Assembly: GCA_030248065.1 (NCBI GenBank)
Contig: JASAMV010001966.1
Span: forward strand, 62,001 to 126,000
Direction: 5' to 3'
Origin: Rhynchonema sp. JSB1_4
Taxonomy: Eukaryota > Nematoda > Chromadorea > Monhysterida > Xyalidae
Length of the DNA stretch: 64,000 nucleotides
The translations under genes were made by a program, and so were the position numbers. Positions 27,201-46,100 of the stretch are shown piece after piece. Numbering within the stretch: the stretch's first letter is position 1; every line of letters begins with the position of its first letter. The notes beneath the pieces are model-generated. The model did not search any database. It was not told where the DNA came from and was given only the letters and a program-made list of their open reading frames with translations.

Positions 27201-30200
27201 CAAATTTTATTCTTACTCGATTTTGAAACGCAAAATGCAGGTCTCGCAGCTGCATTATTGTCAACCGATGTCAAATCTCTTGCGCAAAATCAATTCAATA
27301 TTGATGCAATAATGTACATATTCGTGCTTTTGGTAGCACCAAAATGAGCTGGTAAGTACAGTAGTAGTAGCAGATGCGGGTTACATACATACTGTACGTA
27401 CGGCGCGGAAAATTTAGTCAGCTAAAGCAGTAATTCGGCAATCCTAAATCCATGTTGTTCCAAAATTGCTGTTGCTCACAAGATTCTGGCTCCGGTGTGG
27501 CGTTGTTTTATTCGTTGGTCACTTTGTGACCATAATAAAGTGTGTTAGCGCCAAAAACAAACAGCACATCGACTGAAGGTTACCGCAGTGTTACACCCGT
27601 GTTATCGGTTCTTGTGTGGTTGGTTACAATGGAAAGTCGTCATCAGGAAGAAATTCTCTGTGTCGGACATTTTTCATATTGCGTGTGCGCACGTTTCCAT
27701 CTTTTCACGTCGGGTAACCTGCCCTTGACAAAGTGAACAATATTGGAGATTTTGAATACCTCGAAAATGAGCTGAAATTGTCATTTTATTACACACACAT
27801 TCTCCAAAAATTCTCACATCACAACAACGCGCTCATTTTATTTCTGTTACATCAGTAGGTGCTCCTGCTTGCGCTCTCTACAGCCCAATTGTATTTGGCT
27901 GATTTGTATCACGTCTTATTCGTATGATCATATTTTTCTTTTACTCTCTGCATTCTTGAATGGTACTTAATAATAGTCGAAGGAAAATAATGGTACTTCT
28001 TGATGGAGTTCATACAGATGCACTGGCACTGGCAATGAATTGCGTTTCTCATTTTTTTTGTGTCGTGCGCGCTGGCATCAATTTCATTATGTGTTTTTCA
28101 TTTGAAACAAATTTATCAACTCGTTCACCAAAACCTGATGTTTCATTGTTACAGAATCGGATGCAATCGAAGCGTGTCAGTGGCTGCGCGCCGCCGGCTT
28201 CCCGCAATACGTGCACATGTATGAAGGTTCGTATTCGTATTCTAACAAACCATTGTTTTAAATGAAAATGAACGTTTTTCAATTTTGTACGATATGTATT
28301 GAATTTGATAATCCGATAGGATCTGTCTTGCAGATCGGTTCTGACCTAGTCACTAACTTCAATAGCGGCTCAACATGTTCATACCAAAGTTTGTATGCCG
28401 AAAACCCGTTTGACAAACGTTTTTGAATTTTGCCTCAAAAAGTATACTGAATTTAATCTCATAGGGTCTCGTCATTTGGTTCACAGAAAACAATGGCAAC
28501 TTATTTTCTTTCAATTTTAAAATATCTAGCCACAAAACGAAGCGAATAAACCTAAAAATGCAGAACAACACCAAAGTCAATCTGTGATTGCAGAGGGCCG
28601 ATTCCCGATCGACATCCAGTCGGTGGCGAATGATCACGAATTTCTCGACCCCGACTCGCTACAGGCCCTGTTTCGCCGACTACAGATCCTGAACCGATGC
28701 GCCGCGCTGCACACGCAGGTCGTGCTGAGGAGACAGGTATGGTTGCGGCGTATTAGTGCCATGCGAATAACTTATGTAATCGGCTCTGAGGATATTTTCA
28801 TCTTGTGAAGTTTGTGAAAGCAGAAAGTTGGTGATATCGCATCAAGCCGGTTCGGAACTACCTTTGATCATGTTTGACCTTCTTTGCATTGTGAGAATAT
28901 TTTGAGGTTACCTGATGCCACATGCCACTAATTTTGACCAGCGTTAAATTTTTGCCAGATAGTCATGCAGCATACGACCTGGTGTAAATGAGTCACGTCA
29001 GTTAATCGCGATGTTATGCATCTTGAATGCAAAAAGCAAATCAATCAATCGTGACCAAAGCAAACTCAATCCGACTACCATGTTTGATACCGATGCATAT
29101 TTTCCGAATTTACTTTGCTAAAACTTATCTTTCGATCAAAAACTCAATTGAACACTCACTAATTTTGGGCTGGTTGCAGCAGTCAACGGTTGCGGAGGAA
29201 GACGAGGGTGATGCGGACCAGGACGAGATCGACGACAGTACGGTGGCGCTGAGTGGTCATTGGAGATATCAACGCAATTCGAGGACTTGGTCGCGTGTGG
29301 TCACCGATCAGATGCAGTTGTTGCAGGTGATTTAGTGGTTGTGAAACATCAGCCAGTTTAAGCAATGTGAGGTTGTTTATTGGCAGCAGACGATGTTATA
29401 CAATAACGGGAAGCATTCCATTCTGGTACATGCCAAACTCCTTTGCAAGCAAAAAGCTGCTTTCTTCGGGTGATATTTTCGAAACGGTGTAAAGGTCAGT
29501 TGGGTGTAAAAGTCGGTGGAAAGCTCGGTTGATAGCTCAGTGTGACAGACCTCGGCGCCTACCTAAACTGGTGGAGCAATGCCCCGGTTAGTTATAAGTT
29601 GGTTAGGCCCAGTTTGATTGGTGGTACTGTAGCATATAGCTCAGGTCATCTCCAACAGTTGTTAGCCCTGGTTATTGGCCTGGCTGTTTGACATATTGGC
29701 TGAGGCAGCCTCAGTTGCGCACTCAACATAATGTAATCGCAATGAGTGTTGACAGTTTAGTTCTGTATTCTCATACACGAACGATGGATTAGGACATCGG
29801 CAATGCGAACTAAAATTCTGCATATTGGACGACTAGGCACCTTCTCACCTTACAGCCTCCACCCACGGCGCAGCAGTCCGACACGCGGTCGCTGGACAGT
29901 GCCTGTCTGCGTCGACATGCCATTTCGAACGATGGTCAAGTGATCTATGATTGCGTGCCTGATGAACAACACCAAAATCAGCAAAATAGAGCGACGGGAG
30001 ATGTGACCCGAGATTTGGATGATGATGATGGTGCCACTAGCCAGTTGGTGCACGCGATGGTCGCCGCACAACACCATGGCATGAAACATCAGCCACAACA
30101 CCAGCAACAGGGACCGAGTAAATTGCAACGATCGCAGTCGGAGAGGATAAAGGTGGGCAGGATATGTTGGTGAGGGATTAAAGGGATGTTTTTTTCCATA

Positions 30201-33200
30201 GCAGGAGCTTTAAAAAAGAAAAATAAAGGCATGAACCAATTTTATATTTAGTCATCAAATCGGATCTGCCTCGGTCATCTGCGTTTTTTAATCAAGGATG
30301 TTTTGAGATTTACAGTACTTATAACACTATTATGTTCGCCCACCGTAACAGCTGTTTAATAGCAGCTGTGGGATGAAACATAGGTTATAATTAGTTGGAT
30401 CAATAAGTCTGGAAATATCATTTGGACTAAAATTAGAACTTTCCATTATTATATTATTATCATTATAAGTATTCTAACTTCCCATAAACACACAGGATCG
30501 AGCGAAGGCCATAATGAAACGAATCGACTTGCGTGCGTCCACTCGTCGACGTCGACCGGTCGTTCAACAAAATCTCGAGATCAGTGGGCCCATGCTCGTG
30601 GTGGAACATCAGTCGGCATCACCTGTGCTCAGACACACGATGCAGGGCAATGGTGCGTATGGTGAGTTGGATCGGGTATGTGAATAAGAAGCTTTGGATC
30701 GGCCGGTAAATATCAACATGTGAACAGTCTGTCTCGTATGCGTGCACGGATACACGGTACGATTTTGGATCAAACGTGCTTATTCAGAACTGTTTACAAT
30801 ATCAAACACCCTTATTACCCACATTTATTACATAAGGCCGCATTCACAATGCAAGCGGATTAGCGGATTAGCGGGCGAGATGCGCACGCTTTTGCATTCA
30901 CAATGCAGAAAGCGGATTAGCGGGTTAGCGGATTAGCGGGTCTCCAATTAGCTGACCCGCTACTCCGCTTTTTCATTTTCCATTGTGAATGCAAAAGCGT
31001 GCGCCAAAAGCGGGCCCGCTAATCCGCAACCCGCTAATCCGCTAATCCGCTAACCCGCTAATCCGCTGCATTGTGAATGTGGCCTTAGCGTAAAAGTCAG
31101 AGTCAGACCGAAGTCAGAGACCAACCCAAGAACACGGCTGGCGCGTTTACGTCGATAAGATATCGACTGCAGATTTCGTGATTCACACTGTGGCTCGCTG
31201 ATGTGCAGTGGATTTGACAACTTGTAGGGTGGCCAGAAAGTAAACCAATTTACCATTGCAGTGACCGACCCAACCATCGCAGCAACACCGAAATCCTGCG
31301 GTCCCGACAAACGATATGGTCGTGTGTTCGAGTCGCAGGCGGTTCTGAGCTCCCCTGATTCACCAAGTGAACCCCGTGCTGGATGGGGCCAGGCATCGGC
31401 AACTTTGCCCGTTGGCGAGATCGAACGACAACCACAACAACAACAGGGGTTCTCGAATAGTGCCAGACTGCACCGACCGACCAGTGATGTCATTGCGAGA
31501 GGTGGGTGTTGGTTTCGGAAGAAGTGACCTTGCTTTGACAGCAGGAACTTGTCAAGGAATACGGTATACACGATGTTTCACCACATTTCCTTTTTGTTGT
31601 AAGCTTGAGCTGAGCTGCACGTGTTATAGCACTCTCCCAAAACCTCTCCGTGGCCGATAGGTGTTTTTGAAAAGCACCACTCTCTGGCCTCAAAGAACCA
31701 CGTGAGCTGTCTCTGACGTCACTTAGATCGGCAGGTCATCATAAAATTTTGGCCATGTTACTGCGGATAAACATTTCACAAATTCATTATCGCGTAAACT
31801 TTCATTTTGTTACTTTTATTCTCGACTCGCTGAATTTTCGCACCATCAGTCACAGCACAGCGGATGATGCGTGATCTTCTCACATCTTGCACGTAAACAT
31901 ACAGTATCTCATTAATTGTACTCTGACAGCAAGAAAGATCTGTTAATTAGCCGTGCAGCTCAAGCTTGATTGCTCGATGCCCTTATTTTTAAGCTTCGAT
32001 TATAGCCTGAAGGAACAGTATTTTCGAGGTATTGAATAAAATACCCCGATTTATAAATAAACAGCCTTGTCACCACGTTTTGGAATCAAACCACAACAGA
32101 CGATTCTGCCCTGTGTTTCTTGAAACATCAATCTGCGTAAGAAAGCACATTTTGTACTGACGATCTTCTCCTGCTCTCGTTGATGTTTCATGATCAACAT
32201 TCATAGGAAGAAAAGTAATAAAAAACGTGTGTTTGTGATAGTTGCTATTCTTCAACTTTGGATAGCGTCAAACCAGTGGTAAATAACAAAATGCGCACGT
32301 TTCAATCGCGCGGATCTTCAATATCCTGATTCACGCTTGTTGACAGCGGTTCATTCATGACTTCGTTTGTTCATCCGCAAAACAGCGTTGCTCAACCACC
32401 CACCACATCACTTTGAAACACTTTTTTCAAATCAATTTGAGAACAAGATGCATCCGCATTGACATTAGCCGTTGCTTTGAAGTTCTGTGCTGACGTATGT
32501 AGGTCCAATAATCACGTAGAAATTGTTTATGTTGTTTATAAGGGAAGTTGCTTCGTTAACAAAGTAAAAGAGCCCTCCGTTTTGCTTCCTTTATTGCAAC
32601 AGCCTTTTTGTTTACCAAAGCCTGAGGGCGTCTGTGCTTTTGTTGTCGTCGGAAAGTGGTTGCCATGGACAGTCCGCTTGTTTTTGTTTAAAAATGTCAC
32701 GTTAATTCCATGGCATTTCGCTTCAATTAGTGAACTGTCGATTTGTTCCCCATTGTACCACTACACATATAATATCATCAGCTTATAAATAAAGTTTATT
32801 CTTGCAGAACCAAATTCGCGCAGTGATTAGAAACGTCTGGAAACGTTCTGTATCTTGACGTCAATCTATATATGTTTACCTGTCGGTCCATCTATACTTT
32901 GTTTGCTTGTTTATTTCTAGAAATAAACACTTATCATGTGGATATTCCCATATGGTTTCGATGTCACACAAATATAGCATGAAAGCGTGGTTTCATATAT
33001 TTCTCTGGATATACCTGCGACGTGCGTAATACAGTTCGAACCTTTTCTAAGATCTTGGACTGTTTACGCCAGCGGCGTTTTGAGATACATATTTCAAAAC
33101 TCAGCACGAAGCTTTCAAATACCAGACGATACCGGCTATCTTGATGTTGACGGCTGTCCGTCACGTCGTCAGTGCCACGCATTATTTCTCGCGCTCACTC

Positions 33201-36200
33201 GGGGCTGCTATGAGTTGACGAAGTGATTTGACCACTTCAGTTGACCACTGTAATATCAGCCGTTTCAATCATCACACGACACATGCAAAGCACGTGTACT
33301 GTACTATGGTACATAGTATGTATCTGTGTATATATCATGAAATCTGATACATGGTATCATGTCATCCCATCGTCAATAAAAACATTTCGTCTTGGAAGCA
33401 AAACAACATCGAAAACAGTTTTTAAGTGTCAGTTGATCTTCCTGTGCCAGATGTCGGAAAAGTGCGCTAAAGATAGGTTATCGGTCACTGACACACCTAC
33501 TGTATACATAATTACGTGGGTCCCAATATCGACTTTGGGTTCCAGAGCAGTGACGTTGACTTGGTTTAGGTCGGTTCGGCCCGAAAGCAAAATCTTCTTA
33601 GTTACACTGCGTGCAAGCTGTGAAACATCAGCTTAACCGTCAACCGTAAAGTGCTACAGATGGACAGCAGGCTGATGTTTCATTAGGTCTGTATATTGAA
33701 TGGCCAATTCTTGGTGGAAAGTCATCAAATGCGATGCCGGACAGGCCCGTGGCTGTAGACAAGAACCGGCAACTACATAGTAAGCCAAGCCCACGTGCTT
33801 TAATCAAAATATCACGAAATCACGCAATCATGCTAGAGCACTATGCATGTTTCCACAGCTCACGAAATGTTGTTGTCTAAAAAAAGGATGACTCGGGCTC
33901 TGATGCCAGCGCATGCGTGCTCTTATCAGCTCTGCGCTCATTCGATTTTATAGGCCACTTATACCGTTTATTTTTGTTTGGTCCGGGCTCTATAGGTGTA
34001 AAAACAGGCTATGCCGCGCGCCGATATTTTGAGCACATTTTCTCTTTTTATAACCAATATTAAATGACAGTTCGAGAGAAAGCAGTGTAGGAGATAATTT
34101 TGTCATGATCGAAAGCAGATACAAAACTGGACTACAGTATGTAGGTGTGGACCAAGGGTGGAATTCACAAAGAGAGTTATACAACAGTCACACTTGGTCG
34201 TTTGGGTCGTCGTCAAAGTCCATACTGTCAGATTTCGTTGTTGAAAGCGCATGTGAAACCGATTTTACTTTCATTAACACGGCGGCAGCAACTATACGTA
34301 TATATGTACGGCGGCAAATCACAGTTTCTGTTGTTTGTCATGCGTCATGAGGGACATGTAAGGCTGCAAAATGAAGCAAGCCTAATACTGGGATTCGAAA
34401 TCGGTTTGGATTTTGACAACGGACTCTGACGACCAGTCGAACGACCTCTTACGTGATTCACCGTTTGACAAACACAACATTCGATTTTGAGCTGACCGTT
34501 GAACGCTCAAACGACACGAGTGTGACTTTGTTTTGTGAATTCCGCCGATGTTTGTGCTGGTTACGATGACCCCCAAGGTACATATCCTGTACATACCCTA
34601 TACGTCGCCTTGTCCTGAGCTTTGAGCAATTGGGTTTGAACAATCATGCAACGCTCAGCCCATGCGTCTTCTTTGATTATCGCAGTTTAAATGACGACAG
34701 TATCTTAGTCACCTGGTTTTAGGTCTAAGTGTCCGCAAATTAATTTGTCATCTTTTTAGCTCTCCTAAATATAGACACGACACAGCAACTGGAACTGCAT
34801 TAGTGCGCACAAGCATGGTGTCTTCTTGAGAAGGCGTCACTTGACGTTGAAATCATATCACAGTGTACCAAAAATAACTGGCATTAAAAACGTCATAACC
34901 TTCAAATCGTAAGCGTTATCGGATCTGTTGCTCTCTGACATCGTGGCCATGCCAGAAATAATTATAGTAGGATTACCAAACTACGCATATGTATAAATAG
35001 TTTGGCTTGTATTAATGTGGTCAATGCACATCGTCAACGCTGAGCGTTTAGGGCATCCCGTGTGTTCTTATTCTAGGTACTGAATGTCGGTTGCCTATTT
35101 TGCCGCCATAGTCATGTTGTATTTCATCGCGCTCCTCATTTAGGGATGTTTTGGTCCAGTAATGTCGTTGAAGTATCAAATGACTATGTATAGTATGCAC
35201 TCAACCCACATGTGCGTTACGTGGGGCATGCGTGCTGCGTTACATTGACGAGCCGCGTTGACAATTTGCGTTAACGAATAAACAATCAGCCAGCAGTTTG
35301 GTAGTTTTAGGCTTCTAACAAAAAGATATTAACCCACGGGTGGTGTGTGGTGTGGGCAGAGGCACTAGTGTAATCTGAATACATCAAAGGTATTTTTCCT
35401 TGTCTTAACTTATTTTTGACCTTTATGTGTACTGTTTGTAAATATTGGTCACACTGTCTGATGAATCGTGTGCCCTAAGGATTACGAATCGCATTGACTT
35501 GCATATCAGAACTGCATACATTTCATTTGCATATGTTTTTTTCTAAAAATAGTCCGTTTATTTTTTCCCTATGCACCCTTTGTAAGAGCAAAATGACAGC
35601 CGAACTGGACACAGTATATTTTCATCTTAGGACACTCTCCTCAGAGAAAATTTAGGGTCTTCGTCTTGCCTGATCAGGGAAAATCACGTTTCAAAATAAT
35701 TGTGCTCAAACTTCCATGCCTTCGTTTTTTTCGTTCAGATGCGGCAATGGGATCGACAACTGAAAGTTCACCCGATTTACCCAAACATAAACCTGGTGGC
35801 GGTCAGGCAACAACAGTGAACAACACTGAAAACAACAACAACAACACACGTCTGCTGGTGTCGCCACGAACTCAGAATTCACACTCGAGTTTGGATAGGT
35901 TGGTTTGGCTTCGGCAAAGTTTTTTTTATACCGCCGTTAGGTAGTACAGCACAAAGCAGGTCCCATAATATTTCAAAAACTGCGAGTTCGATGCCAGCGT
36001 AAAGGTTGTGCGTTGGAGGTTTGGAGGCATGTATGTACCTCATTTTTAACACTTGCGGGATTCATCGTAAAATGTCAAAATGTCCTGGGAGCTTCATTTG
36101 GGACCCTCTTCGGATTTGAGATTTCAGAAACAAATAAGCCCAAAAGCATATAAAACACCTCTGAAAATGACGATTAGATGGGGGGATTATTCGAAAAACC

Positions 36201-39200
36201 TTCCGACTAAACCTCCATTGGGGGGAGCTTATTTGACAATCCCCGGTACGCAATTTTTCCAATAACAAAATCTCACCTGCTCGAACGGCGCGCCCGATGA
36301 ATCAGATGCCAGAAAAGTGCATTCCAGCCAGGTGTTTTTGGTGTCATACGTGGGCATAAGAAGGGTGTCAGGAGGTGCACTCGAAACGTCAAGAATAAGA
36401 AGTTGTTCGTTATTATTTCGTGCAGTGCTGCGTCTCACAAACGTCCAGTGATCATGTCATTGACAAATCGGAGTCACAAAAACACCATGCACTTGAAACA
36501 TTGCAGTTCGACGGAAGACACCGACCACAGCCCGCATGCGTCCGGCAGTGGGCATCAGCCACATCTTGGTGAACGAAGGGATTCCGGTGTTGGGTCGAGT
36601 CTGTCTCGATCGCCAAGGTGTGTAAAACATTCGAATCGTGTTTTTTTATGGATTTTTGGACATAAGACATGTACGTATAGGGGTATAGTACGTCAAGCTT
36701 GCTGATTGAATTTGATCTGACTTTTTTGCATTTCGAATATTCTCAGATCCGCTGGTTCCTGACCAGCGTAAAAATTGTTCACTGCGATAATCAGTGGCAC
36801 AAACGTTATTGTAAAACACGAGGGATTTTTCAACCCAAAAACGCTTACAAGAGAGAGACCAAAGTAAATTTTCCCCCCGATCTAATCCGATCACCAAGAG
36901 CAGAGTGCACAGTATCTTAAATTTGTATTTGTACACAGTATTGATCCTTAAATTTATATCATTTAAACTGTATTCTGCAATCCGTTGACAATCGATCGAA
37001 TTGCAATGTTGACCCGTTTCGTTTTACAGTGGTCCCGGTCGACGTTTCGCCAACAGCAAATGGTCGAATTTTGCGCCGTCCACTGATCCGAATCGGCAGC
37101 CGATGGAAACATTCGATCCGATTGATACGTTATCGGTAAGACTCAAATGACGTGTTTGGTTAATGTTTCGAATTTGGCGCCAAACAGGACCTGCACATTT
37201 TCCCATGTAATTTTTATCAGTGCTTGAGTATCCAATTTGTGAACATTCTTCCCGAAGCGATTGAAAATACCGGTCCCGATCAGATGACGAATGGTGAGGG
37301 TAGACAAGGTCGACGCTAAGGCTTAAACGCACGGCATTGATATTCCAAGACTAAACCACTTTCCTTGACATTCCAGGTATCCGAACTGTTGACAATGCGC
37401 AAGTACGCGCTGCTCAAACTAACCGCGTTGATGGAGAAGCACTCGCCAGGGCGTCACACCAGTGGCTGGGCGGGCGTGCAGCGCCTGTTGAAGAAGATCA
37501 AGACACCTGGTGGGGACTCGAAAGGCGTCAAGGGTAAGCGCCATCATAGTGTTGGAAAATTAGAAGAGTCCAGTTTCTTTATACTGACACTCTTCATACT
37601 GGAACGCTCTTATATAGTGCATTTTGTCAACGCTCTGTGCCAATGTGCCCCAATGTGCCGTTAACCTCATAATGACCACTGTGCGCAGTGGATATTTTTT
37701 ACAGTGACAGACAATAGTCGGTTCCGTTGATATCGCTGTAAAGAGAGTAGACCAGCCTGCAAGTAGATAGAAGTCTTGCTTCGATGCTGACAGCTCTTGT
37801 TCTCAGCTCTGCAAGCGGAGCTAAACGGGCCATTGAAGTGGACCTTGTATTCCACTCCACGTTATGCTGATACGTGCATGTCACAACTCTATGGGAAGAG
37901 TCTAAAATTATTGCACAGTTGGCGAGCAAATTTTGAGCACGCACACATGATAAATATGTATGTAAAAAGTGCGCACGATTCTACGGAACGCTGAAAATTT
38001 TCAGGCAAACTGTCTCGGGCGTGGCATTATAAATCTGGTATCTTAGGAATGAAATTATAACATCTTTTTGGTAAAATATTTCACCCAATCAAATCCCTTT
38101 TTACAGACCGTCAAGTGTTCGGTGTGCCCCTGCACGTGAACGCCCAACGCGATCTGCCCCTGCCCAGGTGCATGTTGTACGCGTTGCAGTTCCTTCGTGA
38201 CCAGGCACCGGATGCGCACGGTATATTCCGCAAACCTGGTGTTCGATCGAGGATACAGAAGCTGAAAACCATGTGCGAACAGGCACCGAATGGTTAGCGA
38301 CAGCGTTATTGATTTTATTTTTTGTTTGATTTTTAGATACACACAGGTAAACACAGCGCAAGGATTCGCTGAAAGCCCAAACCGATGTTTCATTTCAGAC
38401 GTTCTATTCCGAACGGAACAGGTGTACGACGTGGCTGATATGCTCAAGCACTATTTTCGCGAGCTGCCCGAACCGCTCCTAACCAACAAACTCTCGGAAA
38501 CATTCATCGGAATTCACACATGTGAGTGTATTTCTGAAAAAGTACACCTAGAGAGTAAATAATAAATAAAGTGTTTGTATCGTACTTGTAGATGTACCAC
38601 TCGATCTGCGTCTGGAGGCTGTGCGAAAAGCCATTCTGCTTTTACCCGATGAGCATCGTGAAACATTACAAACGCTGCTCTATTTCCTGCGCGACGTTGC
38701 CACGCACGCGACCACCAACCTGATGACCGCACAGAATTTGGCCGTTTGTTTTGCGCCATCTTTGTTCCAACTGAGTCCGCGTGTCGGCGCATTGTCGCCC
38801 CAACGACGACATAAGACATTCAGCGGGCCGGGATTGCCCAGTGAAAAGGTACGTAATCAGCAATATTGTGTTGGGGACCTCAATTCAGACTTCAACTTGA
38901 TGACAAAGCAATATAGCAACAATCCAGTTCCGTGCAATCGAACAAACATAGGATTCAATTTGCTTCGTTTTAAGTCTTCCGTTGCTCCATCTAGTTAATC
39001 TCTTGAACTGCACAGGCATCATAACGTTTCACACCTTTACAGGAGCTGCGCGAGAATCAAGCGGCTCAGTCGTGCTTGACACAAATGATCACCGAGTGCA
39101 AGCAGCTGTTCGTCACGTCCAATAACGTGTTCGAGCGATACGGCAATCCGCTCGTCGACTGCTACAATCCGAATCCGCCACAGCTAGTCGATCTCGGCGG

Positions 39201-41417
39201 ACCATCGAGCACTTACAGGGATTATCTACTGGACTGTGTTCATCAACTAGTCAAGGTACGGGAAAGGTGAAGTTGACCAGAATTGTGATATTTAGCTGCA
39301 AAATTCACACTTCGAGTGTGATTTTTGCAACGTTGCTGCACTAGTGTAAAATGGTACGAATTTTACACTTTTTGAGCAAACCAACCAGTTCAAGTATAAA
39401 CAACACAAATTTACAAATCAACACTTTGTGTGTGAATTGTACTTTATGTGAATACTGCAGGAACAGCGCGACGGCTGGAAACACTGGACCACGGAGGGTT
39501 CGCACTTGGGCGTCGAGATGACGTCGAAATCAGCATCCGACCAGTACCCGCTTCGACTGTGGCGCTGCTGGACCGACATTGAAGCGCCGCCCAGTGAACT
39601 GCTCGTGCGCATACTCAGGTATGGACTGGAGTACGGTAGATTCGTTTCAATAATACAGTAATCATAATGTTGGTTGCAGGGATCGCGACGTTTGGGATGA
39701 GAACATCATGAAACAACAGGTTGTGCGCATGCTCAGTGACGATTGTGACATATTCCAGTATGTCGTCAATGACATGCCCCCGCATCCGACCAGAGATTAT
39801 TGTGTGGTCAGGTGAGGTGTTGTGTTGTTATGCTTATTTTTTAACATTAGTGCCGTGCGTACTTTAAACAGTGCTCTTTTAAGCCAATCAGTCTAATAAT
39901 ATAATTGAAACCAATCAATATAATTTAAACAATCTTCTTCTTCAGATTATGGCGTCAACAAATCGTCGGTATCAGTAAAATTAAGACCAACCCCCACCAA
40001 AAGACCAACCCCCTTTTTGTGTGCAGCGTGTAGCTGGCAAACTATTCTAAACATTCACCAAAAATTTTGTCTCAAAACGCTATGTACATTGAGTTACAGC
40101 CTGTTGAAAACACCTGCTAGTTCCGGTTGGGGGTTGGTCTAGTTTCTTGTTTTTGAAAAAGAAAACCAAGTTGCTTGGCGGAGCAATTTTCGCGGACAAA
40201 AAAGACCAAGCCCCAAAGCACGCGACCCCAACACACACACACACACACACAAGATTGCTTCAGCACATGATTGTTGCATAATACCCCAGCTGTGTGTGTG
40301 TGTGTTGTATTAGGGACTTTACGCTCTCTCGGTGAGTGCGTCGCTGCTGGCCCGATCATTACGTTTATAATGTATCGTAAGGCGGCTTGGCTGTCGGCGT
40401 CTTTAGCACAGTGGCAAGCATATCTGACTGTGGTTGTGAGAGCCACGAGTTCGAAGCTTCTCACAGACAAGCTTTTTGATGTTTTTCTTTATGTTTTCAA
40501 TGTGTAAATATCAATGATTTCAACAAACAGAAACCAATCGCTTCACACCCGGCGTTTGCTTCAAAATACAATCAGAAAAACCCGGCCCAAAAAATCGGGC
40601 CGGATAGGACCGGGCTGACTTTTTCTGAATCCGGCCATGCCGGACCGAGGTAACCCGATTCCCACCTCTGTAACAAGCATTTTGAATGATAATGCTGCAT
40701 TTAAGACGTTTTCATGAACCCCGTATTGAATCATTTTCAAGCAGGCTAAAAATAAATGGCAGAGAAAATGGGGGTTGGACTTTTTTTCGGTTTTCAACTG
40801 CTCCGCCAAGGGGCTTGGTCTATATTTATTTTTTTGTCAACTAAAACCAACCGACAAATAGCTTTGTTTTTACTTGGATATGATGATTCAAAGTCTAGTT
40901 TTGTTTCTATGATGATCAGCATGCTCCCTTTCGTAGACATGCCAAACATCAGCCTACCGAACCAAACCGTGTTGGAAATGCGGTCAGGCCAACTTCAAAC
41001 GCTTTTTTCTCGAAAAAGTGGTTTGGGGGTTGGTCTTATTTTTACTGATACCGACGAAATGGCCGAGCTACGTGGCGGCTGCGTGCTCGTTGAAACATCA
41101 GTATGTGCAGCCAAACTGATCGGCGGTTTGCGCGCCAATTGTATGACGTCACGATTTCTGATTGAGCCGTCGCCTCTGGGTGCCGGTCGATCGCGGGTCA
41201 CCTATGTTGCCAGAATTGACACTAAGTAAGTGTAAATAGTTTACGCAGCATTTTGTAACATTTTTACATTTTTGTGTGGGAAAAACTAACATGAATTTAC
41301 AGAGGTCGCGGCAAAGCCTGGTACACGCGAATCTTCGGCCATCAATGTGCGCGGCATCTGGCACGATTACGTGACAGTTTCAAACAAGCGGCCACTGGTC
41401 CCGAAACAAAATTGTGA
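15624..41417 (+). CDS. DLC1/STARD13-like (gei-1/cv-c family): DLC/STARD13-type Rho GTPase-activating protein (SAM-RhoGAP-START), 29 coding segments
   Basis: Exons, all phase-compatible: 15624-15938, 16302-16507, 16762-16944, 17228-17501, 18102-18243, 18469-18705, 18964-19370, 19744-20046, 20384-20560, 21165-21207, 28155-28226, 28594-28736, 29180-29326, 29856-30152, 30496-30661, 31262-31501, 35739-35898, 36426-36617, 37030-37135, 37377-37533, 38107-38292, 38399-38521, 38592-38848, 39043-39255, 39461-39618, 39680-39811, 39946-39964, 41068-41225, 41303-41417 (TGA). They total 5,328 nt. The family stimulates GTP hydrolysis on Rho and is lipid-linked through START; it controls actomyosin and adhesion from cortex and junctions. 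Domain order is disordered N-terminus, SAM, Ser-rich linker with the family motif ERRDSGVGSSL, RhoGAP, START. The N-terminal extension before SAM is about 760 residues, unusually long. One exon is interrupted by a transposon (39964-41056). The true start codon is not identified; it probably lies upstream of 6407. Confidence 0.92.
17626..17956. mobile_element. hAT-type MITE with 8-bp duplication GTGGTGAG (family H1)
   Basis: The 331-bp element begins CAGAGGTGGGAATCGG and ends in the inverse CCGATTCCCACCTCTT. Exact 8-bp direct repeats GTGGTGAG flank it at 17618-17625 and 17957-17964. The body is full of CGGCCCGA/TCGGGCC words and is non-coding. CAGAGGTGGG ends and an 8-bp duplication are diagnostic of hAT elements. 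It lies in an intron of the RhoGAP gene. A related end fragment lies at 40570-40673. Confidence 0.9.
21208..28154. other. 7-kb intron of the RhoGAP gene, nothing coding recognised
   Basis: It separates a 14-residue exon (21165-21207, ending in phase 1) from the SAM exon (phase 1). I see no further exon. The 145-codon minus-strand frame at 26114-26551 matches no family I know and is AT-rich. A diverged relative of the GTTGACGAC mini-element family spans about 21690-21830. Confidence 0.55.
28155..28736 (+). CDS. SAM domain exons of the RhoGAP gene
   Basis: Two exons, 28155-28226 and 28594-28736, encode a SAM domain of the DLC type: EACQWLRAAGFPQYVHMYE, then FPIDIQSVANDHEFLDPDSL, then LFRRLQILNRCA. 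Human DLC1/STARD13 have the same spacing (WLRATGFPQY, FPIDI, HDFLD, LCRRLNTLNKCA). The intron between them is in phase 1. In the family this SAM packs as a monomeric helical bundle that binds partners and modulates GAP activity. Intronic sequence just downstream (28750-28770) carries one of the dispersed TATTAGTGCC words. Confidence 0.93.
29180..31501 (+). CDS. Post-SAM linker exons of the RhoGAP gene
   Basis: Exons 29180-29326, 29856-30152, 30496-30661 and 31262-31501. The first contains an acidic run and ALSGHWRYQRNSRTWSR, the equivalent of the conserved ALSGKWTFQRDSKRWSR segment of DLC proteins. The second ends KLQRSQSERIK, and the third begins DRAKAIMKRIDLRASTRRRR and continues LEISGPMLV, matching the basic stretch followed by (L)EISGPVL in the family. 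The fourth is Gln/Ser-rich. In vertebrate DLC1 this region holds the serine-rich focal adhesion targeting and phosphorylation sites; the RSQSER motif is a plausible kinase or 14-3-3 site (inference). Confidence 0.88.
29401..29470 (-). repeat. Fragment of a SINE-like repeat (3' part)
   Basis: Read on the minus strand it contains CCGAAGAAAGCAGCTTTTTG then CTTGCAAAGGAG and ends CCCGTTATT. The same string, slightly diverged, follows a tRNA-like head in the fuller copy at 51510-51650. It is intronic. Confidence 0.45.
29468..29555. mobile_element. Half copy of the GGGTGATATTTTCG foldback element
   Basis: The sequence GGGTGATATTTTCGAAACGG followed by TGTAAAGGTCAGTTGGG matches the arms of the complete element at 41449-41675. 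No matching right arm is seen nearby, so the copy is truncated. It lies in an intron of the RhoGAP gene. Confidence 0.6.
30836..31084. mobile_element. Harbinger-like MITE, internally deleted copy of the 8986-10471 element
   Basis: It has the same ends (GGCCGCATTCACAATGCA and its inverse) and the same AGCGGATTAGC arrays, reduced to 249 bp. Flanks are TAA on the left and TTA on the right, so the duplication has either decayed or is absorbed into a TAAGGCC/GGCCTTA palindrome. It sits in an intron of the RhoGAP gene between the exons ending at 30661 and starting at 31262. Confidence 0.85.
31502..35738. other. 4.2-kb intron of the RhoGAP gene
   Basis: The flanking exons are both phase 1. The intron holds a truncated family-M1 MITE at about 33160-33250 and a diverged relative near 35140-35290. 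The 131-codon frame at 33241-33636 has no domain and begins in repeat sequence, so I do not treat it as a gene. Confidence 0.55.
33160..33250. mobile_element. Truncated copy of MITE family M1
   Basis: It retains the centre (ATTATTTCTCGCGCTCACTC) and the right arm GACGAAGTGATTTGACCACT ending in CCACTG with TA after it. The left arm is missing. Confidence 0.7.
35739..37533 (+). CDS. Ser-rich linker and pre-GAP helix exons of the RhoGAP gene
   Basis: Exons 35739-35898, 36426-36617, 37030-37135 and 37377-37533. The second contains GERRDSGVGSSLSRSPR, the near-invariant family motif (RRDSGVGASLTR in vertebrates) just before the GAP module. The fourth encodes VSELLTMRKYALLKLTALME then KHSP and RLLKKIKTP, matching the conserved helix LRKLSLLKLTALMEKYSP that precedes RhoGAP in DLC proteins. 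All junctions are phase-compatible (1-2-2-0-1). Confidence 0.9.
38107..38848 (+). CDS. RhoGAP domain exons
   Basis: Three exons: 38107-38292, 38399-38521 and 38592-38848. The domain opens RQVFGVPLHVNAQRDLPLP and contains GIFRKPGVRSRIQKL, whose first arginine (codon 38229-38231) is the arginine finger that completes the Rho GTPase active site. It continues YDVADMLKHYFRELPEPLL (GAP motif RELPEPL) and then PDEHRETLQTLLYFLRDVA and MTAQNLAVCFAPSLF, all hallmark RhoGAP blocks. All key residues are intact, so activity is expected. The second exon's acceptor follows a GATGTTTCA word (38384-38392). Confidence 0.95.
39043..41417 (+). CDS. START lipid-binding domain exons, last part of the RhoGAP gene
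   Basis: Exons 39043-39255, 39461-39618, 39680-39811, 39946-39964, 41068-41225 and 41303-41417. Family blocks are present: RDGWKHWTTEG, LRLWRCWTDIEAPPSELLVR, DRDVWDENIMKQQVVRMLSD, YVVNDMPPHPTRDYCVVR, GGCVLVETSV, MTSRFLIEPSPLGAGRSRVT and AWYTRIFGHQCARHLARLRD. The C-terminus after RDSF is short, as in the family. The segment between WRQQ and LRGGC is split by a 1.1-kb inverted-repeat element. Splicing from ATC|GTCGG (39964/39965) to GAG|CTACGT (41067/41068) gives WRQQILRGGC, exactly the family length for WKTNLPKGAC. The START pocket probably binds a lipid; the ligand is unknown. Confidence 0.93.
39290..39440. repeat. Cluster of short ACAC/GTGT palindromes in an intron
   Basis: The intron between 39255 and 39461 contains several small inverted repeats such as TTCACACTTCGAGTGTGA, GTGTAAAAT...ATTTTACAC and AACACTTTGTGTGTGAATT. 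The same style of cluster occurs at 61440-61620. The origin is unknown. Confidence 0.45.
40231..40310. repeat. (CA)n and (TG)n microsatellites
   Basis: A CACACACACACACACACA run at about 40231-40252 is followed about 40 bp later by a TGTGTGTGTGTG run at about 40290-40303, so the two can fold back on each other. Both are inside the element in the START exon. Confidence 0.7.
40395..40470 (+). other. tRNA-like segment, probably SINE-derived
   Basis: It contains TTTAGCACAGTGGCAAGC, resembling an A box, and CACGAGTTCGAAGC, resembling a B box, at tRNA-like spacing. The acceptor and T stems do not pair fully, so it is not a functional tRNA. It is part of the insertion at 39964-41056. Confidence 0.4.
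40570..40673. mobile_element. End fragment of hAT MITE family H1
   Basis: CCGGCCCAAAAAATCGGGCC followed by a right end ACCCGATTCCCACCTCTG matches one half of the element at 17626-17956. The other end is missing. It is nested in the 1,093-bp element, so it is either captured or inserted and then truncated. Confidence 0.65.
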
Positions 41418-41448: not shown

Positions 41449-41675
41449 GGGTGGAATTTTCGAAACGGTGTAAAAGTCAGTTGGGCGTAAAGGTCGGCGT
41501 GAAGTTCAGTCGAAAGCTCGGTCGGCGCAGCTCGGTGTAAACGTGAAACGTTGCCTGTTATTAACGTGGTATGTTTCAAGTTTACACCGAGGTCTATCAC
41601 AATGAGCTGTCGACCGAGCTTTCCACCGACGTTTACACCCAACTGACCTGTTTTACCGTTTCGAAAATATCACCC
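41449..41675. mobile_element. Foldback MITE with GGGTG...TTTTCGAAACGG arms
   Basis: The 227-bp element starts GGGTGGAATTTTCGAAACGG then TGTAAAAGTCAGTTGGG, and ends with the inverse CCCAACTGACC...CCGTTTCGAAAATATCACCC. ATA is found directly on both sides (41446-41448, 41676-41678). It lies in the 3' region of the RhoGAP gene, 31 bp after the stop. A half copy is at 29468. Confidence 0.8.
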
Positions 41676-43158: not shown

Positions 43159-46100
43159 TTGTATTTTGCGTCTTTGTTGGCGTTGTGCTACCGCAAGAGG
43201 AAGATGAAGCAGATCCCGGCATCTTCATGGATTTGTGCACCATCTGTCGTCATGGTATGGTGGTGTGTCATTGGGTAATTTTTAAGCCACAGTCAAAATG
43301 TGAATATAGGTACATACATATGTACTCAGTCTATGCGGGCATAAAAGCATACGTTCTGGACCGGTAGCGGTGTCTGTGGGTTCGGTGAAATGGTTGCAAG
43401 AGACATTATTTGAACATTATTATTACAGCGACTGTTATACTCATACAGTTCCTGGGTGCAGGGTTGGAAAAAAATTTTTTTTAAACAAGTTTTTTTAAAA
43501 AAAAAATTTTTTTTTTAAAAAGTCTGAGATTCGGGGAAATTTTACCAAATTTGCCTAAAAAACGCGCAAAATCGCGAAAAAATGCAACTTTAATTGACAA
43601 GTCACTTTTGTGACTTGGTTTGCATCACTTATCAAGGGTGTTTACGTCATTTCGGTACGATCCAACAGTCTGTGCTTGATATGGACCAATGATTGCTGCT
43701 CTGTGGTATCGGACACAACAGTTTGTGGCCGAATAAGCAAGATTCACTCATAAACCACGCAGAATTGAGAATATAAGCTGCAGAAATACTTGTCGGGCAG
43801 CTGAATCAGTCGTATATGACCGACCTGATGGGGTATGACATCGAAGTACCATGTAGGCACATGCATACTGTGTCCCATGTATCAAGGGAAGGTATAATAA
43901 CATCATTTGGGGTATCTTAGGTACCAAATACATGCCCCAAAGGTGATTTTGTGAAGAAAATTTTTCGACCCTTGAGAAAAAATGACAAAAAATAAACCCC
44001 AAAAAGGCCATTTTTGGATGTTTTAGAACATTTTGTTCCCCCGAAAATTTAAAAAAAAAATTTTTTTTTTAAATTTTTTTTTCAAAAACCTATTTTTTTT
44101 TGCCCAACCCTGCCTGGGTGCAATTCTAGGCTTAAAGTATGTAGCGTGCGCGTGCATGTGCACGCGCGCGCGAAAGCTATGTATAACTCTTTGGAGCAAA
44201 GTATGTATGTACAATATGCAAAAAGTCGAAGTAACTTCGCGTGCGTGAGGTTTTGGTGTCAAATTCAGTGTTAGTGTGCAAAGCGGTTGATCTCCGGCAG
44301 TGTTTGCATGCATGTGCCTCGTGACACGTGTTTATGCTGGTGCCCATATGTGCACATGCGCATGCAACTGCTACTACTGGCTTCACGGTTTCCCACGTGC
44401 TCTGATCGCATTTTACTTTGCTTACTCAGATTGACCAGCGGAATCCACTGATACAATACCTTTCATACCATAGCGCGTTTCTAGCTCTAACAATGCGCTT
44501 TAGCTGTGGAACTTCGCAAAAAGCTACTTTGGTGATGCGAGTAATAAACCAGCTGATAACACAGTTATGCACGTTTTCATTTATTTCACGTTTCAGACCA
44601 ACTTCGTGGTTTTATCTGTAATGGGTGATTGTGTATCTGGAGCTCAACTCATGCGCAGATTTTGGTAACTTCATGTCTTACTTTTGGCGATTGGTAAGGC
44701 ACAAACCACCAAATATTCCTTAACTATGGACGCGAGGAAGTGTCGCAGCGCCGCCTAAGATTGCACCCTGTACTGTATGTACGCGCTGTAGTAATAATCT
44801 GACTGACACCTTACAAAACGTATGTACATACATCTTCATCAAAAAAAGGCAGGAATTTCTTTAAGTGTGAAACTTTTTTCCCGAAATCTTTAGGTGTCGC
44901 TCTGCTGAGTCAAGACGAGAACGGGCAAAAACTGCAACAAGCTGCCATGATGTACTGCGTGTTCAGTGGAAATGTTGGTGGATGTTTCAATTTCAGCTGT
45001 GTTACTCGTTATACACAATTAGACGATCAAGAGGCATATCCAGATCGTAAATGAATTTTGAACTGTGTGGCTGATGTTTCTCTTTTTTTAGTGATTATTT
45101 CCTCTTGCTGCAACTCCGTTTCAGTGCAAGAACGCTGAATACGTCAACATCACCGAAGCCATCAAGCTGCAGCTGCCAACTTTATGTCAGGTAAATCAAT
45201 CTTGAGTTTTCGCAGACGATTCGTGCCTCGTACAGGCCAGAGTTCTCTTTGGTACCCATCCCTCTTTGGTACCCATCCAGCCGGTACCTACTTTGGTTTA
45301 TCTGAAAGTTCTGCATCCAACTTTGCCGTCCAGAACTAGAATCAGATGTGTCGACACTAATACTCTGAATTCTATGTAAAAGTGATATGAATCTATTCAA
45401 ATTTACACACATTACAAGTTTTCAAATTCCTATTTTCCCAGTCACTGGGCTGTCCGAAAATGAACGCCGCCCCGTTCCCGCGCGTCTGCACTGCGATGGC
45501 TCGTGTTGAGGCCTATGTGGTTGGTTCAGTCTTTATGATCGGATCGGCGGAATGGAATGGTCCCCCGACCTTTCGCTTTGCTCAATTTCTGAAAGTTGTG
45601 CTCTGGGCACCAGTCTCATATCATATTGTACATACCCGAGAGCGTCTCGAAATATCCATGATACAAAAAAGTCACACGATCAAGGCAGGGCTCATCCGAT
45701 GTGATCTGCTTGATTGCCAGGGCAATCATTTCGAACCGTCGAAAGCTAAAAACAGTCAAATTTAAATCAGCCCCCTTCCCTGATTCAGGCACGATGGTAC
45801 CAACAAGCACTGGTCGGCTGCGAATACATCCCGGTGACGTTCATCGAGCAACTGTGCGAACAGTTCATGAATGACACAATGCCCGGCTTTGTCAGCATGG
45901 TCGAAGGCATTTTCCACTTTATCGATCAGACATTCGGATGTCAGAATAATGCCACTGGTTAACTGGGGAGGGGATTTGGGAGCATTTCTTCTGGCCTTTA
46001 GAAATTTTACATTCCCACTCGCACCTAGTACTTACACTTTATGTACGTGACACGGGGCCGTCTGGTGCATGCGCACTGCTGATGCCCTGGTGTATGGTTG

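Follow-up and report, generated by a model that had tools for sequence, protein, structure and literature searches.

The START exon of a DLC/STARD13-type gene is interrupted, probably by the very recent insertion of a non-autonomous, multi-copy DNA transposon with terminal inverted repeats (TIRs). The window, i.e. the whole stretch of 64,000 nucleotides that was analysed, contains the following parts of the insertion:

39964..41056, no strand assigned: non-autonomous TIR DNA transposon (MITE-like), 1,093 bp, assigned by its ends, its length, its genome copies and the lack of a transposase domain
39964..39997, plus strand: left terminal inverted repeat, 34 bp, identical to the right end at 32 of 34 positions
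41023..41056, minus strand: right terminal inverted repeat, 34 bp
39960..39963, no strand: target-site duplication AAAT, left copy
41057..41060, no strand: target-site duplication AAAT, right copy

The element, its mirrored ends and the AAAT direct repeats around it had been described in a sequence-only reading of this DNA and were found as described, as were its partly palindromic contents. The same reading had proposed that the element is spliced as an intron, which is discussed below.

The element, its family and its age

A 17-base word from the element ends occurs twice in the window, once at each end. This count is unchanged when three mismatches are tolerated, and the number expected by shuffling is 0.13. 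None of the eight open reading frames of the element contains a transposase domain (best Pfam match 15 bits, cut-off 24). ARAGORN found no tRNA in the element, and nothing in Rfam reached its gathering score. Words at 40405-40480 look like tRNA-gene A and B boxes. An open reading frame with an ATG (40756-41229) extends out of the element and, in frame, reaches the second half of the START exon.

In the genome search, 492 candidates were obtained and 40 of them scored; all 40, including the window's copy, are full-length matches at 96-100% identity. A 25-base end pattern with at most two mismatches occurs 352 times in the genome and its reversed control not once; exact left ends were counted at 96 and 27. 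With two ends per copy, the 352 end motifs would correspond to about 176 copies, and roughly one third of these, 59 copies with both ends, was read. L047, one end of which is unmatched, was excluded, as was an additional end in L040 that lacks a partner. Perfect 4-bp duplications flank 57 of the 59 copies, and matching duplications are missing in two. The 59 copies share a palindromic target preference, C/T-A-W-W-T-A/G, for which the window's target C-AAAT-G is typical. A transposase acting in trans would have opened C-AAAT-G, the usual kind of target of the family, and repair of the 4-bp stagger would have generated the AAAT duplications. For several other copies, among them L058, L023 and L020, related empty sites were found. 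The empty counterpart of L058 is a dispersed repeat that is also present in the window at 43547-43706 (98.75% over 160 bp). A limited search yielded no autonomous partner. The longer end-to-end stretches L050 and L051 hold nested or rearranged copies, and no transposon gene was recognised in them, their open reading frames lying outside the Pfam scan. At 41460-41640 of the window, behind the RhoGAP-START gene, lies a palindromic repeat containing ACACCGAG words; another copy of this repeat harbours the element in L051.

The family is a multi-copy, MITE-like, non-autonomous TIR DNA transposon family. With non-autonomous TIR elements of the 4-bp-duplication kind it shares TIRs, 4-bp duplications, many near-identical copies and the lack of a detectable transposase domain in the element. 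Most MITEs are shorter than about 1.1 kb, the approximate length of the window element. A near-identical repeat is also a candidate for a misjoin, so that a repeat copy might have been placed into the gene during assembly. Such an artefact is very improbable: the AAAT duplications on its two sides match and occupy a preferred target, and one contig carries the gene on both sides of the element.

The window insertion is very young. A consensus was built from the 22 copies within 1.2% of the window copy, the window copy included, and only substitutions were counted. The window copy differs from this consensus by one substitution in 1,091 positions, while two further columns differ by a gap. From L009 it differs by no substitution. 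The mean distance of the 22 copies to the consensus is 0.075%.

The host gene and its interrupted START exon

The insertion lies in a gene that was read in part:

30000..41417, plus strand: DLC/STARD13-type RhoGAP-START gene, part read; 15 predicted exons, stop codon at 41415-41417
39946..41225, plus strand: interrupted START exon, 183 bp long when element and one duplication are disregarded; a prediction based on reading frame, homology and GT-AG borders

Position 30000 is an arbitrary start inside the gene, the 5' end of which is not defined, and all exons are predictions. Once the element and one AAAT are omitted, the 15 predicted exons form one open frame of 846 residues. The insertion point is located 18 bp into the START exon, both predicted splice sites of which, acceptor and donor, are intact. 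Omission of the element and one AAAT keeps the frame open and gives WRQQMAELRGGC as the junction product. The gene product contains a START domain (E 3.3e-23) and matches the structure 2pso of StAR-related 13 (E 7.9e-51). Homologues annotated as rho GTPase-activating protein 7 or STARD13 are present in many animals. The gene is otherwise intact, and START matches carry on either side of the element. The latter agrees with the sequence-only reading, which had placed the insertion within a conserved coding strand with intact START blocks on both flanks. From these flanks it had further concluded that the gene looks functional. This conclusion does not follow: because the copy is nearly undiverged from other copies, the flanks would be intact whatever the insertion does, and they are uninformative on gene function. 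Within an intron of the gene, GCGGATTAGCGG words form a palindromic repeat at 30840-31085.

A tree was built from the query and 33 chosen members of the 120 listed homologues; in it, the host groups with nematodes and the best match (15 rows, support 100/100). Neither a second gene copy nor an empty allele was found in the assembly, where matches to the joined empty site are confined to the two halves of this locus. The host gene is a single-copy gene of the DLC/STARD13 type.

The element interrupts a loop of the START domain. Loop lengths were compared in 120 listed homologues, the best of 1,040; the counts exclude the query as well as P0001, a fragment of the window itself. The loop comprises 12 residues in 16 of the 120, namely 15 nematode sequences and the best match, and 10 residues in the other 104. 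All 16 long loops contain the E and RG. Plain excision of the element restores a 12-residue loop as in these 16 sequences. The 10-residue loop of DLC1 was considered as a yardstick and rejected, because the nematode homologues among the 120 listed have 12 residues.

The proposed reading of the element as an intron

In the sequence-only reading, the element is an introner-like intron. According to this proposal, it is spliced between a donor in its own end and an acceptor in the exon:

39965..39966, plus strand: proposed donor GT, 0.4 bits, within the predicted TIR helix
41066..41067, plus strand: proposed acceptor AG, -6.5 bits

Splicing from 39965 to 41067 gives WRQQILRGGC with an open frame. 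In addition, the distance between the AG and a CTGAT at 41045-41049 would be plausible for a branch point. Both reconstructions that had been said to keep the frame, excision and this splice, do so, but open frames are common: of 16 GT-AG pairs close to the element ends, 7 are open, and a wider scan found 48 open pairs. Among the seven, only the proposed pair keeps LRGGC. The product has the 10 residues of DLC1, as had been pointed out, but DLC1 is the wrong yardstick here. Compared with the 12 residues obtained by excision and present in the nematode homologues, the splice costs two residues, including the glutamate that is kept in all 16 long-loop homologues.

Splice sites were scored with a matrix from the 14 predicted introns of the same gene, each native site being left out in turn. 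The donor scores 0.4 bits versus 2.1-9.3 for the 14 native donors, the acceptor -6.5 bits versus -0.2 to 13.4 for the 14 native acceptors. Both proposed sites score below all 14 native ones, and by this measure neither is a usable splice site at or beside the element ends. As noted earlier from the letters, the acceptor has no pyrimidine tract. Furthermore, the proposed donor and the CTGAT would both be buried within the predicted helix of the element ends.

Gozashti et al. (2022, PMC9860276) record introners with TIRs and 4-bp duplications. The window element resembles them in its TIRs and 4-bp duplication, its position inside an exon and the existence of one GT-AG pair that can keep the frame. 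It differs from the introners described there by its weak sites, an acceptor outside the element and a product shorter than the ancestral loop. Its length is above the range of 30-654 given there for the medians of introner families. Some introners recorded there alter protein length, but for most families mRNA length is usually unchanged. A further difference from that account is that the family copies scanned contain no clear second exonic copy.

This last point results from a survey of the other copies. Open reading frames of at least 55 residues across the joined flanks were scanned by Pfam for 47 of the 59 copies. The scan is blind to exons without a Pfam domain and to frames of 40-54 aa; nine longer frames (55 aa or more) of L040a and L041 were left out for low complexity. 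The window copy shows a clear coding domain across its junction (START, 27.6 bits, cut-off 22). Among the 47 copies scanned by Pfam, no second copy clearly interrupts a coding domain. L011 (CD36, 13.7 bits, cut-off 26.5) was rejected as an exonic copy: a gtaagc donor precedes it by 37 bp, which places it within an intron of a CD36-like gene. In L010 and L055, a CRAL_TRIO match just equals its cut-off of 22.6 bits. On the opposite strand, a helix-turn-helix frame with an ATG (21.8 bits versus a cut-off of 24.6) is followed by gtaggc, and the insertion is probably intronic. L010 and L055 form an inverted duplication on the 13.7-kb contig C153, each arm of which carries the element at the corresponding position. 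A FATC match reaches 15.2 bits versus a cut-off of 25.3, and further junction matches are weak (E 0.008-0.047). A codon-bias scan gave values above 8 at 5 of 59 junctions, the window's included on the wrong strand, versus 12 of 75 control points. The training gene scores 7.4-27.7 at its exon midpoints. The scan is weak, and no conclusion is drawn from it. L031, which ranks first in it (19.2), lacks a Pfam match. A search for the same ends at intron boundaries of other genes had been suggested. L011, which lies within its intron and not at the border, counts against a canonical introner.

Taken by its sequence, the DNA gives no sign of intron behaviour. The introner reading is not supported because of the weak sites, the loss from the loop, the near-zero divergence and the lack of a second clear exonic copy among those scanned; we regard a canonical introner at this site as extremely unlikely. 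What persists of the earlier proposal is a transposon inside a coding exon; the intron finds no support in site scores, loop or the copies surveyed. The element would be of greater importance if it were an introner in a nematode-like animal, a reading to which the sequence lends no support.

Fate of the message

As a very young insertion in an exon of a conserved single-copy gene, the window element offers a clean natural test of how an animal cell treats a TIR element in a message. Such a test would separate decay, exon skipping, cryptic splicing and TIR-guided excision. Since the native splice sites of the START exon are intact, retention of the element is favoured. The retained element would add 23 codons and then a stop, with a further exon junction downstream of it:

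40031..40033, plus strand: first in-frame stop TAG on retention of the element, reached by read-through after 23 codons

A truncated START domain or nonsense-mediated decay would be the default outcome of retention. The insertion allele may be heterozygous or tolerated. The otherwise open frame of the gene would fit a functional, healed transcript equally well.

The ordinary spliceosome might provide some in-frame message by cryptic splicing or exon skipping. Skipping of the whole START exon keeps the frame at the cost of 61 residues. The best of the 48 in-frame GT-AG pairs combines the native donor at 39812 with an element acceptor at 40898. However, in-frame acceptors inside the element are weak (at most 0.8 bits with the native donor), and the intact native sites speak for retention. 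We consider such a rescue possible, yet unlikely.

Alternatively, the message might be healed with the help of the TIRs. The ends would pair in the transcript, the element would be cut out and RTCB would join the exon pieces without GT-AG sites. SOS splicing would then keep the insertion allele working by removing the MITE-like element from the START-gene transcript. Both the healing and this role of SOS splicing appear rather improbable to us. The proposal concerns RNA only and is compatible with a recent transposon insertion as the origin of the DNA structure. If true, the window element would be a natural exonic healing substrate of a type other than Tc1 and outside Caenorhabditis.

TIR pairing is the trigger of SOS splicing. 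Nematodes use this pathway with CAAP1 and AKAP17, and the grouping of the host with nematodes is in line with its presence. A host search for the CAAP1 family gave no match, which is uninformative, as the controls of that search were equally silent. A 2026 review (PMC13247085) counts SOS splicing among metazoan pathways: transposons are excised from mRNAs, and RTCB serves as ligase. According to its title, a 1996 paper concerns Tc1 and its removal from pre-mRNAs in C. elegans. The window insertion shares with these cases a TIR element, a coding exon, a nematode-like host and ends that are predicted to pair in RNA. In contrast to Tc1 in C. elegans mRNA, the window element is of a different type.

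By prediction, the inverted repeats are able to pair in the transcript, as an SOS substrate should. The minimum-energy fold pairs the element ends with each other by 32 base pairs. The pair probabilities are mostly 0.95-1.0 and lower at three places. The duplex of the ends has a predicted energy of -57.7 kcal/mol versus a mean of -13.4 for 500 shuffles. In addition, RTCB is encoded in the host genome, where eight pieces over the cut-off are located on one contig.
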